Source: Candidatus Saccharimonadota bacterium
Lineage (GTDB): Bacteria; Patescibacteriota; Saccharimonadia; Saccharimonadales; Saccharimonadaceae
Assembly: GCA_017556795.1 (NCBI GenBank)
Contig: JAFYLZ010000004.1
Location: 124,001 to 188,000 of the forward strand
Reading direction: 5' to 3'
Length of the DNA: 64,000 bases
The notes under the pieces were generated by a model that saw only the letters and a program-made list of their open reading frames with translations, was not told the DNA's origin and searched no databases. Position 1 is the stretch's first letter. Each line of letters opens with the position of its first letter. The translations under genes were made by a program, and so were the position numbers. Shown here piece after piece: positions 23,304 to 53,044 of this stretch.

Positions 23304-24032
23304 TTAAATGCCAAAAAGATTAAGCACGTTTTTGGAGGTGATTTCGGCAACTTCTTCTTTGTTTGTGGCGGTTTTTTCGGCTAACCACTCGGCAATTTCT
23401 TTGATATAAGCCGGCTCGTTTTTGGTGCCGCGATATGGAGTTGGGGCCAGGAACGGTGCATCGGTCTCGAGAATAATGCGCTCGAGCGGTGGCGTTGGTA
23501 GGGTGGAATAGGTAGCGAGGCCGTTTACGCCAACGTAGAAATTAGTTTCGTTCAAAATGCGCTTCAAAGTCTTTTTGCTGTCCGAAAAAGAGTGCATGAC
23601 GCCTCTGATTTCTGGGAAATTTTGAATGATAGCGAAGAAATCGTCAAAAGCCTCGCGAATATGGAAACTGACCGGGAGGTTTTTGTCCTGAGCTAGCTGC
23701 AAAAGTTGTTCGAATAGCTTGATTTGATCCTCGCGGGTTTCTGGCGAATAGTGATAATCGAGGCCGATTTCACCGATTCCGACGAGTTTGGCGCTGCCGG
23801 TTGGCTTCTCGACGGCGAATTTTTGGCATTCGCTCGGATGGATGCCATAGGTATAGAAAACGTTGTCATGTTTTTCGGCAAAAGTGCGGGCGGTTTCAGA
23901 GTCGTTTGGGTCGGTACCGATGCAGATGATTTTGGTGACGCCGGCTGCGGCAGCTTTTTTGATGGCCTGCTCGGCCTCTTTTTCGGTAAAGAATTCGCGG
24001 TCGTGCAAGTGGCAATGAGAATCAATTAACAT
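23304..24032 (-). CDS. tatD: TatD-family metal-dependent hydrolase (DNase)
   Basis: 242 residues of the amidohydrolase-type TIM barrel: metal site DSHCHLHD at the N-terminus, GEIGLDYHY near 88, SFHIREAFDDF near 125 and GVMHSFSDS near 147, with ETDAPFLAPTPYRG near 190. TatD proteins are 3'-5' exonucleases and D-aminoacyl-tRNA deacylase-like enzymes in DNA repair or turnover. TATAAT (24039-24044) ends 6 nt before the ATG. It is often next to metG or rsmA; here it stands alone. Confidence 0.93.
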   Translation of the reverse strand: MLIDSHCHLHDREFFTEKEAEQAIKKAAAAGVTKIICIGTDPNDSETARTFAEKHDNVFYTYGIHPSECQKFAVEKPTGSAKLVGIGEIGLDYHYSPETREDQIKLFEQLLQLAQDKNLPVSFHIREAFDDFFAIIQNFPEIRGVMHSFSDSKKTLKRILNETNFYVGVNGLATYSTLPTPPLERIILETDAPFLAPTPYRGTKNEPAYIKEIAEWLAEKTATNKEEVAEITSKNVLNLFGI

Positions 24033-24045
24033 ATTTTTATTATAA

Positions 24046-24072
24046 CAGAAAAGCCCCGCGAGGGGCGGGGCT
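24046..24072 (-). terminator. GC-rich terminator facing tatD
   Basis: AGCCCCGC (24052-24059) pairs with GCGGGGCT (24065-24072), followed by TTTT on the minus strand. It would stop minus-strand readthrough from typA just before the tatD promoter. Confidence 0.8.
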
Positions 24073-24253
24073 AGACTGAGTTAAGGTGTTTTTAGAGCTT
24101 TCGGCATCGAGTATGATTTCGTTTAATGTGCGTTTCAGTTTTTTACTTTTTGTCTAGATTAACAGGGGTGGCGATGGTGGCTATAATGGGTGGATTTTAA
24201 AATGGTTAAGATTAGGTATTGATTTTTTCTACAAAATGGTGTATAATATGTAG
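24073..24253 (+). promoter_or_regulatory. Tandem promoters for the 24254-24608 RNA
   Basis: Two near-consensus promoters point rightwards, each with a 17-nt spacer: TTAACA (24159-24164) with TATAAT (24182-24187), and TTGATT (24219-24224) with TATAAT (24242-24247). No open frame of note lies between them. The stretch 24073-24158 shows nothing beyond a CTAGAC/GTCTAG pair (24071-24076, 24152-24157). Confidence 0.7.
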
Positions 24254-24608
24254 TACGGTGTATGAGTTATGCCTTTGTTCTTTGTCAGCTAGTTCGATAG
24301 CAGGCTTTCCAAAACCTGCCATCTCTATCCCTCTATGATAAGCGCTGAGAGCACTTACTGCTAAAAGAATTCACTATTCCAATGTGTGCTCTCGAAAACC
24401 AAACTTCTTGTTCCAGAAGACGTTGGCCGGTCGCTTTATTTTCCTTTTAAACATTCGCATTTGAGCGTCAGTTGCCAGTTGCCGTTTAAAAGGGCCTCCT
24501 TTCATGACTGTCCAACAATAAATCCAAATTCCGAAAAACACCTACTAGACAAGAACAATTTTAACTCATCACTAATATCTGCCCCGTGGCTTAGCTACGG
24601 GGCTTTCT
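24254..24608 (+). ncRNA. Unassigned structured RNA of about 350 nt with closing helix and terminator
   Basis: Starts downstream of two promoters and ends at an intrinsic terminator. The ends pair: ATGAGTTA (24262-24269) with TAACTCAT (24562-24569), continued by TTGTTCTTTGTC (24275-24286) with GACAAGAACAA (24548-24558), one bulge. Inside are hairpins GCAGG/CCTGC (24300-24319), GAGAGCAC/GTGCTCTC (24347-24393), CTTCT/AGAAG (24404-24419) and a 10-bp CCTTTTAAAC/GTTTAAAAGG (24443-24493). CCTCCTTTC (24495-24503) equals the usual 16S anti-Shine-Dalgarno tail. Signature sequences of RNase P, tmRNA and SRP RNA were looked for and not seen. No convincing protein frame. Confidence 0.7.
24581..24608 (+). 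terminator. Terminator of the structured RNA
   Basis: GCCCCGTGG-CTTAG-CTACGGGGC (24581-24603) followed by TTTCTCTT on the plus strand; the minus-strand side lacks a U-run, so it belongs to the RNA and not to typA. Confidence 0.8.
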
Positions 24609-24619
24609 CTTGCTCTAAA

Positions 24620-26434
24620 TTAGGCGCGGTTTTCGCGTTTTCTCTTGATTGGATCGAGTTGACGCTTCCTCAAACGGAGCGATTTAGGAGTAACTTCAAG
24701 AAGTTCATCGTCGAGCAAAAAGTCTAGACACTGCTCCAAAGAGAGCTGTGTATAAGGGGTGAGCTGAATGGCGCCATCCGAAGCGTGGGTGCGCATATTG
24801 GTGAGCTGTTTCTCTTTACAGACGTTGATATCGAGGTCGTCTTTTTTATTAGAAAGACCGACGATCATACCCTGATAAACTGGTACCTGTGGTGGAATAT
24901 AGAGAATACCACGGGCTTGGGCGGCATCGAGCGCATAAGAGGTAGAAATACCGGATTCGAAGGCAATTAGGGCGCCGTTGCGTTCTGGTTTGTACTTAGT
25001 GTCGACTGGACGGTAGCCGTTGGCGACGCTAGACATAAGAACGGTGCCTTTTGTGGCGGTCATTAACATGTTGCGAAGGCCGATAAGGGCGGAGGTGGAA
25101 ATTTCATAGGTAAAGCGGGTGGCACCGGTGGAGGTGAGTTCTTGGCTCTTTAGTTCAGCTTTTCTGATACCGAGTTCTTGGGAGACGGCACCGACGAATT
25201 CTGGCTCGACTTCAACGGTGAGCTCTTCGACTGGTTCGCATTTGACGCCGTCGATCTCTTTGTAGACGACTTCTGGGCGACCGGCTTCGAGTTCGTAGCC
25301 TTCGCGGCGCATGGTTTCGATCAAAACTGAAAGGTGTAATTCCCCGCGGCCAGATACCTTGTAACCAAGGCCATCTGGAACGATTTTGAGGGCGATGTTG
25401 GTTTCGAGCTCTTTTTCGAGGCGTTCAGCAATCTGACGAGAGGTGGTAAATTCACCTTCTTTGCCTTTAAGCGGTGAAGTATTTGGGCCGATGTAGATAG
25501 AAAGAGTAGGCGGTTCGAGCTCGATGGTTGGCAAAGCTTCTGGATTGTCGCCGCTAGCGATAGTGTCGCCAATGTTGGCTTCGCTAACACCGGTAAGAGC
25601 GACGATGTCGCCAGCAATAGCGAGCTCAGTTTCCTCTTTGCCAAGACCTTTATAGGTGAAGAGACGGTCGATTTTGGCGGTTTTGCTGGTGCCGTTTTGT
25701 AAGATTTTGACAGTTTGGCCTTTTTTCAGAGAACCGCGGAAAATTTTACCAATACAGTATTTGCCAAGGTAATTATCGGCAGCGAGTGCAGCCACGAGTA
25801 GTTGGGCGCCTTTGTCGGCGTTTTCATCGACTTTTGGTGCTGGAATATCGTGGATAATTGATTCGAAAACAACGTGCAAATCGTTGTCTAGGTCAGTAGT
25901 TTTGCCAGCTTTGCCATCGCGGGCGATAGCGTAGTAAATTGGGTAATTAAGCTGTGATTCGTCGGTAGCAAGCTCCAAGAAGAGATCGGCGATTTCGCCT
26001 TCAACCTCTTCGATACGGGCAGCTGGTTTATCAATTTTGTTAATAATTACCACTGGTTTAAGCTTCAAATCCAAAGCCTTTTTCAAGACGAATTTGGTCT
26101 GTGGCATTGGGCCTTCCTGAGCATCAACTACGAGAATGACGCCGTCAGCCATATTGAGCGTACGTTCGACTTCACCAGAGAAATCGGCGTGGCCTGGAGT
26201 ATCAATAATGTTGATTTTGTAACCATTGTAAAAGATTGCAGTCTGTTTTGCGGTAATCGTGATGCCACGCTCGTGTTCCTGGTCCATGGAGTCCATGATC
26301 AGAGTCTGGGACATTTCGGCCTGGTTGTCGCGGAAGGTGTGAGACTGTTTTAAAAGTCCATCAACAAGAGTCGTCTTGCCGTGGTCGACATGGGCGATAA
26401 TTGCAACGTTTCTGATGAACTCTTTTTCTAACAT
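24620..26434 (-). CDS. typA: Ribosome-associated translational GTPase TypA/BipA
   Basis: 604 residues with the EF-G-like layout: G1 AHVDHGKTTLV, G2 RGITI, G3 DTPGHADF and G4 NKID, then domain II, domain III, domain V (SGRGELHLSVLIETMRREG) and the BipA-specific C-terminal domain ending in a basic tail (LRKRQLDPIKRKRENR). BipA supports 50S assembly and stress growth. TATAAT is 7 nt before the ATG. Nothing is missing. The stop is 12 nt from the terminator hairpin of the convergent RNA. Confidence 0.96.
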   Translation of the reverse strand: MLEKEFIRNVAIIAHVDHGKTTLVDGLLKQSHTFRDNQAEMSQTLIMDSMDQEHERGITITAKQTAIFYNGYKINIIDTPGHADFSGEVERTLNMADGVILVVDAQEGPMPQTKFVLKKALDLKLKPVVIINKIDKPAARIEEVEGEIADLFLELATDESQLNYPIYYAIARDGKAGKTTDLDNDLHVVFESIIHDIPAPKVDENADKGAQLLVAALAADNYLGKYCIGKIFRGSLKKGQTVKILQNGTSKTAKIDRLFTYKGLGKEETELAIAGDIVALTGVSEANIGDTIASGDNPEALPTIELEPPTLSIYIGPNTSPLKGKEGEFTTSRQIAERLEKELETNIALKIVPDGLGYKVSGRGELHLSVLIETMRREGYELEAGRPEVVYKEIDGVKCEPVEELTVEVEPEFVGAVSQELGIRKAELKSQELTSTGATRFTYEISTSALIGLRNMLMTATKGTVLMSSVANGYRPVDTKYKPERNGALIAFESGISTSYALDAAQARGILYIPPQVPVYQGMIVGLSNKKDDLDINVCKEKQLTNMRTHASDGAIQLTPYTQLSLEQCLDFLLDDELLEVTPKSLRLRKRQLDPIKRKRENRA

Positions 26435-26475: not shown

Positions 26476-28224
26476 TTAGTGGCGCCATTTACCACCAGTG
26501 TCCGGAGCGAGCGGGATGAATGGTTCGGCCACTGCTGGAGCTTCGACTCGCAGTACTTCTGTTACTGGCTCTTCGATTACTTCAACGCTACCGCGTCCGC
26601 CAATCGTATTGAGGTCGATTTCGACCGCATCGCCGCGCGTAGAATCGGAAAGCGGTACTAGTCTAAGCAGATTTTCGTGGCTGTGATCAATGTCGCTTAG
26701 GATAATCTCGTGCTCGGCAGTGGAGCCCAAAATCGCGTCACTTAAAATTACCGTAACTTCCCTAGCGTCGGTATCAAATGTAACATGAGTCTGTCCGCTT
26801 TCGTCTATCCAGCTATCGGTAATGGTGAGAGTTGGTTTGTTTGGCATGTCAGTGTCAATATCGACGCGTGGCAAACTGTCGTAGCGAGCGTGAATTTCAT
26901 TTGCAGCGAGCTCGAATTCTTCGGTGCTGAGAATAATTTTGCCGTCGGTTTGCTCGGTGAGCTCGACGTAGTATTCGCTATTTTCCGGCTCGGTGACGAC
27001 GTAGATGTTGACCGGGTCAATGCGGCGGCTGAGTTCGACAACGTCAATGAGGCTAATGCCGTCAATGTCTGGTAAATGGTAGGAGGCGTCGGTGAGGATG
27101 ATCAACGATTTGGTGGCACCCATTTTCCAGTCCAATTCATCCATAGCGTGATAAGCGGCGGACAGTAGTGACTCTGGCTCGTCACCGCCTTCGCTAGCCA
27201 GAATTTCATTAAGCTCGGCAACGAAAAGTTCTAGTGTACAGGTTTCGAAATCGCAATGTTGTCGTGGCTCGTAAAGTTCTTGCAAATCGCGATAGTCGTA
27301 CAAGGCGACGCGCCCGCCTTTTTCAAAAGTTTGGATGGCAAATTCGATGGCGCGTTCCTTATATTTTTTGATAAATCGGCCCATCGAGCCGGTCGAATCG
27401 ATTAAGATTGCCGTGTCGTGTGGTGAATAGTAGGCGTTTTCGATCGCAAAGGCGGTGGTGATTTTGTCAAAGATGTAGCGTGAAGCGTCTTCGTAGAGAC
27501 CGTCGCGAATGTAGCTGACGTGGTCTTCGATACTTGGGTTAAAGAAATTGCTACACATGATGTCTTTGGTGTTGCACCAAGTGCCAAGTTTACCAATGAA
27601 GGCTTCTGGCTCGTATGGGCGATAGCTGCCGAGAATTCCCTCGTAGGCAAAACAGTCCGGCACGTAGCGACGATAGTCCGAAAGGTCGCGGTTGTAGCAG
27701 GCGGCCGGGATTGGATGCTCCAAATCGTTTTTCCCTTCCGGCAAATACAGTTTTGGATCGCCAAAAGTCGCTGCGTAGATAATTTTGTCGGTGTTCAGCT
27801 CGCCAAGGGTTTTCGAAATTACCATGGCGCCTTGCGAGTAGCCGGCCAAAACGAATTTGGAACTAGAACAAGTGGTGTTGACGACGCGCTTTAATTCTTC
27901 GGCGCCGGCGTTGATGCTGTCGCCAAACGTCCCGCTTTCGCCGCCGCTAAAAAACGCGCCGACCAAAGTTCCAACATCCGTCACCGAGACGGCCGGATAA
28001 TCCAAATCCCTAAAATTGTAAGTTAATGAGAGCGCCGACATTTTCTCCGACATGGCTTCTTGGAAAGCGTGGTAGCTTTCGCCCTCGTCTTGGGTCTCGC
28101 CTGAGCCGCGGATGAAGACGAATTCGACGTCCGCGCAGCCGGTTTCGGCGGCTAAGGCTTGGACCGGCAGACCAGTCGCCAACATCCCGGCTATGATTAA
28201 AATTGATAGAATTTTTTTGATCAC
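26476..28224 (-). CDS. Secreted cutinase-like serine esterase fused to a von Willebrand factor A domain
   Basis: 582 residues. The signal peptide (1-26) ends VQALAA. Residues about 28-255 match the cutinase alpha/beta-hydrolase fold: FIRGSGETQ near 38, nucleophile Ser130 in LAGYSQGAM, Asp221 in WCNTKDIMC and His235 in IEDHVSY, with Cys217/Cys224 placed as in cutinases. Residues about 268-430 are a vWA domain with MIDAS DSTGSM (276-281). The remaining 150 residues are beta-rich, ending PLAPDTGGKWRH, which resembles a sorting motif but lacks a following helix. The start is GTG with AAGGAGAG upstream. Cutinases are mostly fungal and actinobacterial, so transfer from an actinobacterial host is plausible. 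Confidence 0.85.
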   Translation of the reverse strand: MIKKILSILIIAGMLATGLPVQALAAETGCADVEFVFIRGSGETQDEGESYHAFQEAMSEKMSALSLTYNFRDLDYPAVSVTDVGTLVGAFFSGGESGTFGDSINAGAEELKRVVNTTCSSSKFVLAGYSQGAMVISKTLGELNTDKIIYAATFGDPKLYLPEGKNDLEHPIPAACYNRDLSDYRRYVPDCFAYEGILGSYRPYEPEAFIGKLGTWCNTKDIMCSNFFNPSIEDHVSYIRDGLYEDASRYIFDKITTAFAIENAYYSPHDTAILIDSTGSMGRFIKKYKERAIEFAIQTFEKGGRVALYDYRDLQELYEPRQHCDFETCTLELFVAELNEILASEGGDEPESLLSAAYHAMDELDWKMGATKSLIILTDASYHLPDIDGISLIDVVELSRRIDPVNIYVVTEPENSEYYVELTEQTDGKIILSTEEFELAANEIHARYDSLPRVDIDTDMPNKPTLTITDSWIDESGQTHVTFDTDAREVTVILSDAILGSTAEHEIILSDIDHSHENLLRLVPLSDSTRGDAVEIDLNTIGGRGSVEVIEEPVTEVLRVEAPAVAEPFIPLAPDTGGKWRH

Positions 28225-52392: not shown

Positions 52393-52884
52393 TTATTTCT
52401 CTTCGCGGTTTTCGAGTCCGGAAACGATGCCATTGACGCCAGAAAGAAGCGTATCGACCACCTGGGCGATAAGTTCGTTCTTGGTTGGCAACGAACCGAG
52501 TGCGACTACCTCGTCTTTGGAGAGGTTAGCGCCTTCGTTATTGAAACCACCAATAAGTTCCATCTTATTGTGGGTCTTTGCGAATTTAGAAAGGACCTTA
52601 GCGGCGCTGAAATCTTCGTCTGAGCCGATGGCGTAGAGAAGTTGGCCGGTAAGACCAGTCGTTTCGGTGTCTTTGTAAGCAGCGATTTCTTTCATCGCAA
52701 CTTTAAGAAGACGGTTCTTCACGACTTTGATTTTGACGTCGGATTCGCGAGCGAGTTTGCGGAGCTCTTGGAGTTCAGCAACGGTGAGACCTTCGTATTT
52801 AGCGTAGGTGACCATCTTTGAATTGTTCAAAAGCTCGGTCAAATCAGCAACCAATGTAGTCTTTTTATCTTTTGAAATTGCCAT
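52393..52884 (-). CDS. rplJ: 50S ribosomal protein L10
   Basis: 163 residues. AISKDKKTTLVADLTELLNN and TYAKYEGLTVAELQELRKLA are typical L10 starts, then the C-terminal helix (NGIVSGLENREEK) that binds L12 dimers. It is preceded by an L10 leader that probably gives feedback control. Starts near AAAGGAAC 6-7 nt before the ATG. Confidence 0.97.
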   Translation of the reverse strand: MAISKDKKTTLVADLTELLNNSKMVTYAKYEGLTVAELQELRKLARESDVKIKVVKNRLLKVAMKEIAAYKDTETTGLTGQLLYAIGSDEDFSAAKVLSKFAKTHNKMELIGGFNNEGANLSKDEVVALGSLPTKNELIAQVVDTLLSGVNGIVSGLENREEK

Positions 52885-53012
52885 AAAAAGTTCCTTTGGT
52901 TAAATTTTGACATGGTTAGCTAAACTGTTAAACAGCGTCACCAAATAAAACAAGAATTTGCCTCGGTGGCATGATTAAAGGGTAAACCCTCGCCACTGTC
53001 TTTGGTAACTGG
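52885..53012 (-). promoter_or_regulatory. Ribosomal protein L10 leader (autoregulatory RNA)
   Basis: The minus strand carries ACCAAAGACAGTGGCGAGGG, the L10-binding kink-turn region, then GGGTTTACCC, ATGCCACCGAGG pairing back to the GTGGC arm, and a GGTGACGCTG/CAGTTTAGCT stem, ending before the rplJ ribosome-binding site. The order matches the known L10 leader family, where L10(L12)4 binding represses the operon. Confidence 0.85.
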
Positions 53013-53022
53013 TATAATTATA
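53013..53022. promoter_or_regulatory. Shared palindromic -10 element for rplJ (-) and rlmH (+)
   Basis: TATAATTATA holds TATAAT for the plus strand (53013-53018) and TATAAT for the minus strand (53022-53017). The two divergent promoters overlap, so only one can be open at a time. Confidence 0.75.
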
Positions 53023-53044
53023 GCAAATATCAGGAGAAAAAGCA

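Follow-up and report, generated by a model that had tools for sequence, protein, structure and literature searches.

Saccharibacteria have very small genomes and few known regulators, and the roughly 550 bp between tatD (23304–24032, minus strand) and typA (24620–26434, minus strand; both identities confirmed with Pfam) in the Candidatus Saccharimonadota genome studied here (G000) raise the question of what is kept there. A sequence-only reading of the 64,000-nt stretch of DNA analysed (the window) had proposed a 350-nt structured RNA of unknown family in this interval. We find that a plus-strand non-coding unit at about 24254–24610 lies in the intergenic region and that a selected RNA gene very likely exists at this locus, but that positions 24073–24200 are outside the RNA. 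That outer stretch ends at a minus-strand terminator (24072–24052) just before tatD; CUAGAC/GUCUAG ends precede this terminator and could close a second, approximately 90-nt minus-strand RNA (24052–24160). The features of the locus, as defined by scans, by the MFE fold and by comparison with two relatives (G140 and G120, described below), are as follows.

24159–24187, plus strand: second promoter-like site, TTAACA-17-TATAAT (scan, 11/12); not conserved, role doubtful
24219–24247, plus strand: promoter of the RNA, TTGATT-17-TATAAT (promoter scan, 10/12); conserved in comparison with G140
24254–24610, plus strand: non-coding RNA gene, start predicted at about 24254, end at the U-tract past the terminator (fold, comparison, no coding frame, no Rfam match)
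24257–24269, plus strand: closing helix P1, 5′ strand (GGUG + AUGAGUUA; MFE fold, end-pairing and arm-swap tests)
24275–24286, plus strand: closing helix P2, 5′ strand (UUGUUCUUUGUC, one bulged U; UUGUUCUU-GUC; MFE fold, end-pairing test)
24300–24319, plus strand: internal hairpin GCAGG/CCUGC (MFE fold; sequence not conserved)
24347–24393, plus strand: internal hairpin GAGAGCAC/GUGUGCUCUC (MFE fold; sequence not conserved)
24422–24516, plus strand: arm with the conserved element, outer helix 24422–24433/24505–24516, inner stem CCUUUUAAAC/GUUUAAAAGG (24443–24452/24484–24493; MFE fold)
24494–24504, plus strand: conserved 11-nt element GCCUCCUUUCA, identical in G140, 24495–24504 predicted unpaired; anti-Shine–Dalgarno-like
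24548–24558, plus strand: closing helix P2, 3′ strand (GACAAGAACAA; MFE fold, end-pairing test)
24562–24573, plus strand: closing helix P1, 3′ strand (UAACUCAU + CACU; MFE fold, compensatory changes relative to G140 and G120)
24581–24603, plus strand: intrinsic terminator stem, then U-rich tail (terminator scan; related terminator in G140)

The region holds four promoter-like and four terminator-like sites, compared with 1.3 and 0.8 expected. Both of the near-consensus promoters with 17-nt spacers proposed from the sequence are present, but only the near one (24219) is conserved, the far one (24159) being absent from the upstream DNA of G140 and G120. The proposed intrinsic terminator is also found; the promoter and terminator signals expected of a free-standing transcript are present and conserved. 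The RNA is convergent with typA, and its terminator ends less than 20 nt from the typA stop codon.

Inspection of frames and translations gave no credible reading frame in the unit, in agreement with the sequence-only reading, and the Shine–Dalgarno site plus conserved frame expected of a small protein gene, as in sister species, are absent from the window. No family of Rfam 15 (RNase P, tmRNA, SRP and 6S included) gave a gathering-level match over the RNA, and the Rfam check that the sequence-only reading had proposed turned up no known RNA to contradict it. Relaxing the search to E ≤ 10 returned only chance-level matches over the RNA. The best-scoring of these, RsaH (RF01821; 16.2 bits against a gathering threshold of 50, E = 7.9), is likewise a C-rich sRNA with a terminator, and its weak match covers the 3′ part of the RNA. 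The G140 and G120 loci also had no Rfam match.

The MFE fold of 24254–24612 (−105.1 kcal/mol, z = −6.4, 0 of 100 shuffles as good) recovers the bipartite closing helix, with one bulge in its second part, that had been drawn from the sequence; it joins the ends around several internal hairpins, also as described. Without the terminator the fold still scores z = −4.6 (0 of 200 shuffles as good). The minus strand folds less strongly against its own shuffles (z = −4.5), and the plus strand does better than the minus strand by this measure in all three species. The closed structure had been taken as a sign of a selected RNA: the fold does beat all its shuffles, but fold strength by itself is weak evidence and does not discriminate at the typA–tatD site. 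The small protein genes that relatives carry at this position, which also end in terminators, score equally high (z −3.5 to −7.0), so energy alone does not settle the case and comparative evidence is needed. The RNA ranks about 6th of 321 in a 320-nt folding scan of the 64 kb, with five other windows more extreme, in a coarse scan of 20 shuffles per window whose ranks are approximate. Among the 320-nt windows, those at about 38801 (plus strand) and 51601 (minus strand) lie beyond the RNA, with folding z of −7.8 and −7.3.

A DNA search of 174 congeneric genomes yielded one locus that proved real, in G140, where the RNA lies just downstream of typA with the same promoter, 5′ segment and 3′ segment and a related terminator. 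By typA identity, G140 is the nearest relative of the window (97%), followed by G120 (95%) and then by genomes at 92% and less. G120 has a plus-strand non-coding unit at the typA site whose 5′ end, GAGTATTCCAGTGTTCTTT, matches GAGTATGCCCTGGTTCTTT of G140; both RNAs share place, orientation and 5′ motif with that of the window. The three sequences are divergent, at 220–360 nt. As far as seen, the RNA appears confined to these three species, whose typA genes are the most similar (the reading covered the flanks of about 45 typA genes, and strongly diverged copies elsewhere in other genomes could be missed). A housekeeping RNA universal in the genus was rejected, the RNA being found, strongly diverged copies aside, only in G000 and G140 among the 174 genomes, plus G120 by 5′ motif and synteny.

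Other candidate homologs were rejected. The promoter word CAAAATGGTGTATAAT is a common promoter style in the 174 congeners, with the RNA behind it only in the window and G140. The pattern CCTCCTTT..ACAAGAAC matched the window, G140 and three unrelated-looking sequences in these genomes, and the 5′-motif matches in congeners G056 and G084 bore no resemblance to the RNA. In GTDB contigs the 5′ motif gave the G140 record and a Synergistaceae match whose downstream sequence is unlike the RNA; its 57 matches in viral contigs, none with CCTCCTTT downstream, were taken as chance. A DNA search of the region against plasmids and phages found nothing.

The next relatives (G173, G149, G129, G176 and G137) carry small orphan protein genes at the typA–tatD site. 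These resemble the RNA in position, orientation and promoter-plus-terminator layout, but differ in having a Shine–Dalgarno site and a frame of about 60–70 aa. In many other congeners examined, tatD directly follows typA in a tight junction. The junction is a turnover spot, with differing small orphan genes among congeners (L030, L036, L116–L120, L022, L029), and in G140 a 282-aa gene with a TTG start (L058 2482–3330, G140:C7) separates the RNA from tatD; neither the window nor G120 has it there.

Selection on the ends of the RNA was assessed by pairing the first 36 nt with the last 45 nt before the terminator, against 1,000 shuffled pairs. The ends pair at −25.5 kcal/mol in the window (0/1,000 shuffles), −27.7 in G140 (0/1,000) and −19.4 in G120 (1/1,000). 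Of the five small coding genes, four lack a significant end helix and the fifth, G137, has a marginal one (7/1,000). When arms were swapped, each 5′ arm paired best with its own 3′ arm in all three species. Aligning P1 of the three species on GAGU/ACUC shows pairs in which both bases have changed at four of its eight columns. The homology of P2 is certain only between the window and G140, because the strand pairing with GUUCUUU in G120 sits in a nearer hairpin. The end helices co-evolve in the window, G140 and G120.

Fourfold-degenerate sites of typA (62.8% identical) and tatD (61.2%) served as the yardstick between the window and G140. The promoter region (24200–24253) is identical at 49 of 54 columns (91%, binomial P = 3e-6) and the 5′ arm at 79% (P = 0.02); the terminator is 73% identical, which is not significant, and the RNA interior, at 37%, is nearly unalignable. 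As judged from these alignments, the promoter, the 5′ arm and GCCUCCUUUCA are conserved above synonymous sites, and the best reading is of an RNA that would be young and fast-evolving. Neither the Rfam check nor the comparison, which shows conservation and compensatory closing-helix changes in two relatives only, refutes the sequence-only reading, and its proposal of a selected RNA of unknown family with predicted expression stands. To that proposal our analysis adds a distribution limited to three sister species, a conserved anti-Shine–Dalgarno-like element and the finding that fold strength does not discriminate here.

The element GCCUCCUUUCA is 100% identical between the window and G140 and is the longest word shared by their interiors, a length reached by 34 of 2,000 shuffles. 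Its last 10 nt, CCUCCUUUCA (24495–24504), are predicted to be unpaired (probability 0.86–1.0) with the same boundaries in both species, and immediately after them begins the 3′ strand of a helix, which differs in sequence between the two. G120 carries a degenerate form of the element: CCUUCCCU is predicted unpaired in a comparable stretch and lies outside P2, so the topology differs. CCUCCUUUCA is complementary to the strong Shine–Dalgarno sequence UGAAAGGAGG. C-rich single-stranded motifs that bind Shine–Dalgarno sites are established for the Firmicutes sRNAs IsrR, FsrA, RsaE and LhrC (PMC9410917, PMC4132741). The RNA is like these in having a predicted promoter and intrinsic terminator of its own and a C-rich motif, predicted to be unpaired and conserved in the window and G140, that complements Shine–Dalgarno sequence. 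It differs in belonging to another phylum, in its length of about 350 nt, in its two-part closed end helix and in carrying a single C-rich element, placed within an internal loop. Neither sequence nor structural homology to the four was found, so membership is not claimed. In a limited literature search, no description of a regulatory small RNA from Saccharibacteria came up, nor any report of the RNA at this locus.

The RNA is probably a translation regulator, and we give a probability of roughly 40% to its being a lineage-specific, trans-acting sRNA that masks Shine–Dalgarno sites. Transcription of such an RNA would start from the promoter at 24219 and stop at the terminator at 24581–24603; the 5′ and 3′ ends of the RNA would pair, the two-part closing helix shielding the ends and closing a branched interior. 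One arm would present the single-stranded 10-nt CCUCCUUUCA, which would pair in trans with the Shine–Dalgarno region of a single mRNA or a small set of mRNAs (the ideal target being UGAAAGGAGG) and so block ribosome binding.

UGAAAGGAGG occurs only twice in G000, antisense to the RNA itself and before an ATPase gene that is presumably virB4-like (a family name taken from reading the protein sequence); the sole other TGAAAGGAGG in this genome is the ribosome-binding site of that gene. The predicted duplex between the G000 RNA and the virB4 leader has 12 continuous base pairs (−20.6 kcal/mol), and the orthologous leaders pair more weakly (−13.4 kcal/mol in G140, −8.9 in G120). Strong pairing is thus seen only in G000 and the target is not conserved, which makes the virB4-like mRNA a possible lead rather than a conserved target. 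CCUCCUU of any origin matches many Shine–Dalgarno sites, which counts against this reading; the 16S 3′ end was not found in the assemblies with the sequence patterns tried.

The same RNA could instead serve a protein or the ribosome as a scaffold or decoy, with CCUCCUUUCA acting as a protein-binding or tertiary contact rather than pairing with mRNA. In favour of this, 350 nt is long for an sRNA that acts by pairing, the best-supported element is the closing helix, and no target is conserved; we nevertheless consider this reading somewhat unlikely, as the sole conserved interior element is a Shine–Dalgarno complement and the interior evolves faster than is typical of a protein-bound scaffold. 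That the interior is unalignable, and that the site holds small, identically oriented orphan ORFs in five close relatives, would also suit a decaying unit, in which a site that receives small genes retains only a promoter–terminator shell, transcribed without selected function. Against this, which we judge unlikely, the co-evolution of the end helices in three species and the conservation of promoter, 5′ arm and element above fourfold sites indicate selection, and the closing helix is missing from most of the coding relatives.

An effect in cis, with convergent transcription or antisense pairing controlling the typA transcript and the terminator insulating the neighbours, draws on the close convergence of the two genes and on the only minus-strand terminator in this part of the window being at 24072–24052, so that a typA transcript reading through would run antisense to the RNA. 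In G140, however, typA has its own terminator ahead of the RNA, which means that the antisense overlap is not a conserved feature, and the closing helix and conserved element would go unexplained; we hold this very unlikely. Highly improbable is a small peptide encoded on the minus strand with UGAAAGGAGG as its Shine–Dalgarno site. In G140, UGAAAGGAGG does lie 8 nt before the AUG of an 11-aa frame, and the antisense strand is spanned by a frame of 95 aa, but at the AUG position the window reads ACG with an early stop, and its 95-aa frame is broken except for the last 13 residues, which are promoter DNA. No good minus-strand promoter was found, and the better folding of the plus strand in all three species also argues against it.

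A bolder reading, which we regard as quite unlikely, would make this a young class of end-closed Saccharibacteria RNAs, arisen at a gene-turnover site, that expose a mimic of the ribosome's anti-Shine–Dalgarno tail and tune translation of surface or secretion genes (for example, the virB4-like ATPase). The discovery is solid though modest: an RNA family that is new and narrowly distributed and that carries an interesting element. If real, it would be an RNA gene born in one small clade that kept its ends and one pairing element while the rest drifted, and a compact, testable case, with relatives carrying protein genes at the same site.

Elsewhere in the window, 26476–28224 (minus strand) encodes a protein of 582 aa in which a cutinase domain precedes a von Willebrand A domain, and 52875–53023 (minus strand) matches the ribosomal protein L10 leader (RF00557) at 48.4 bits against a threshold of 44.
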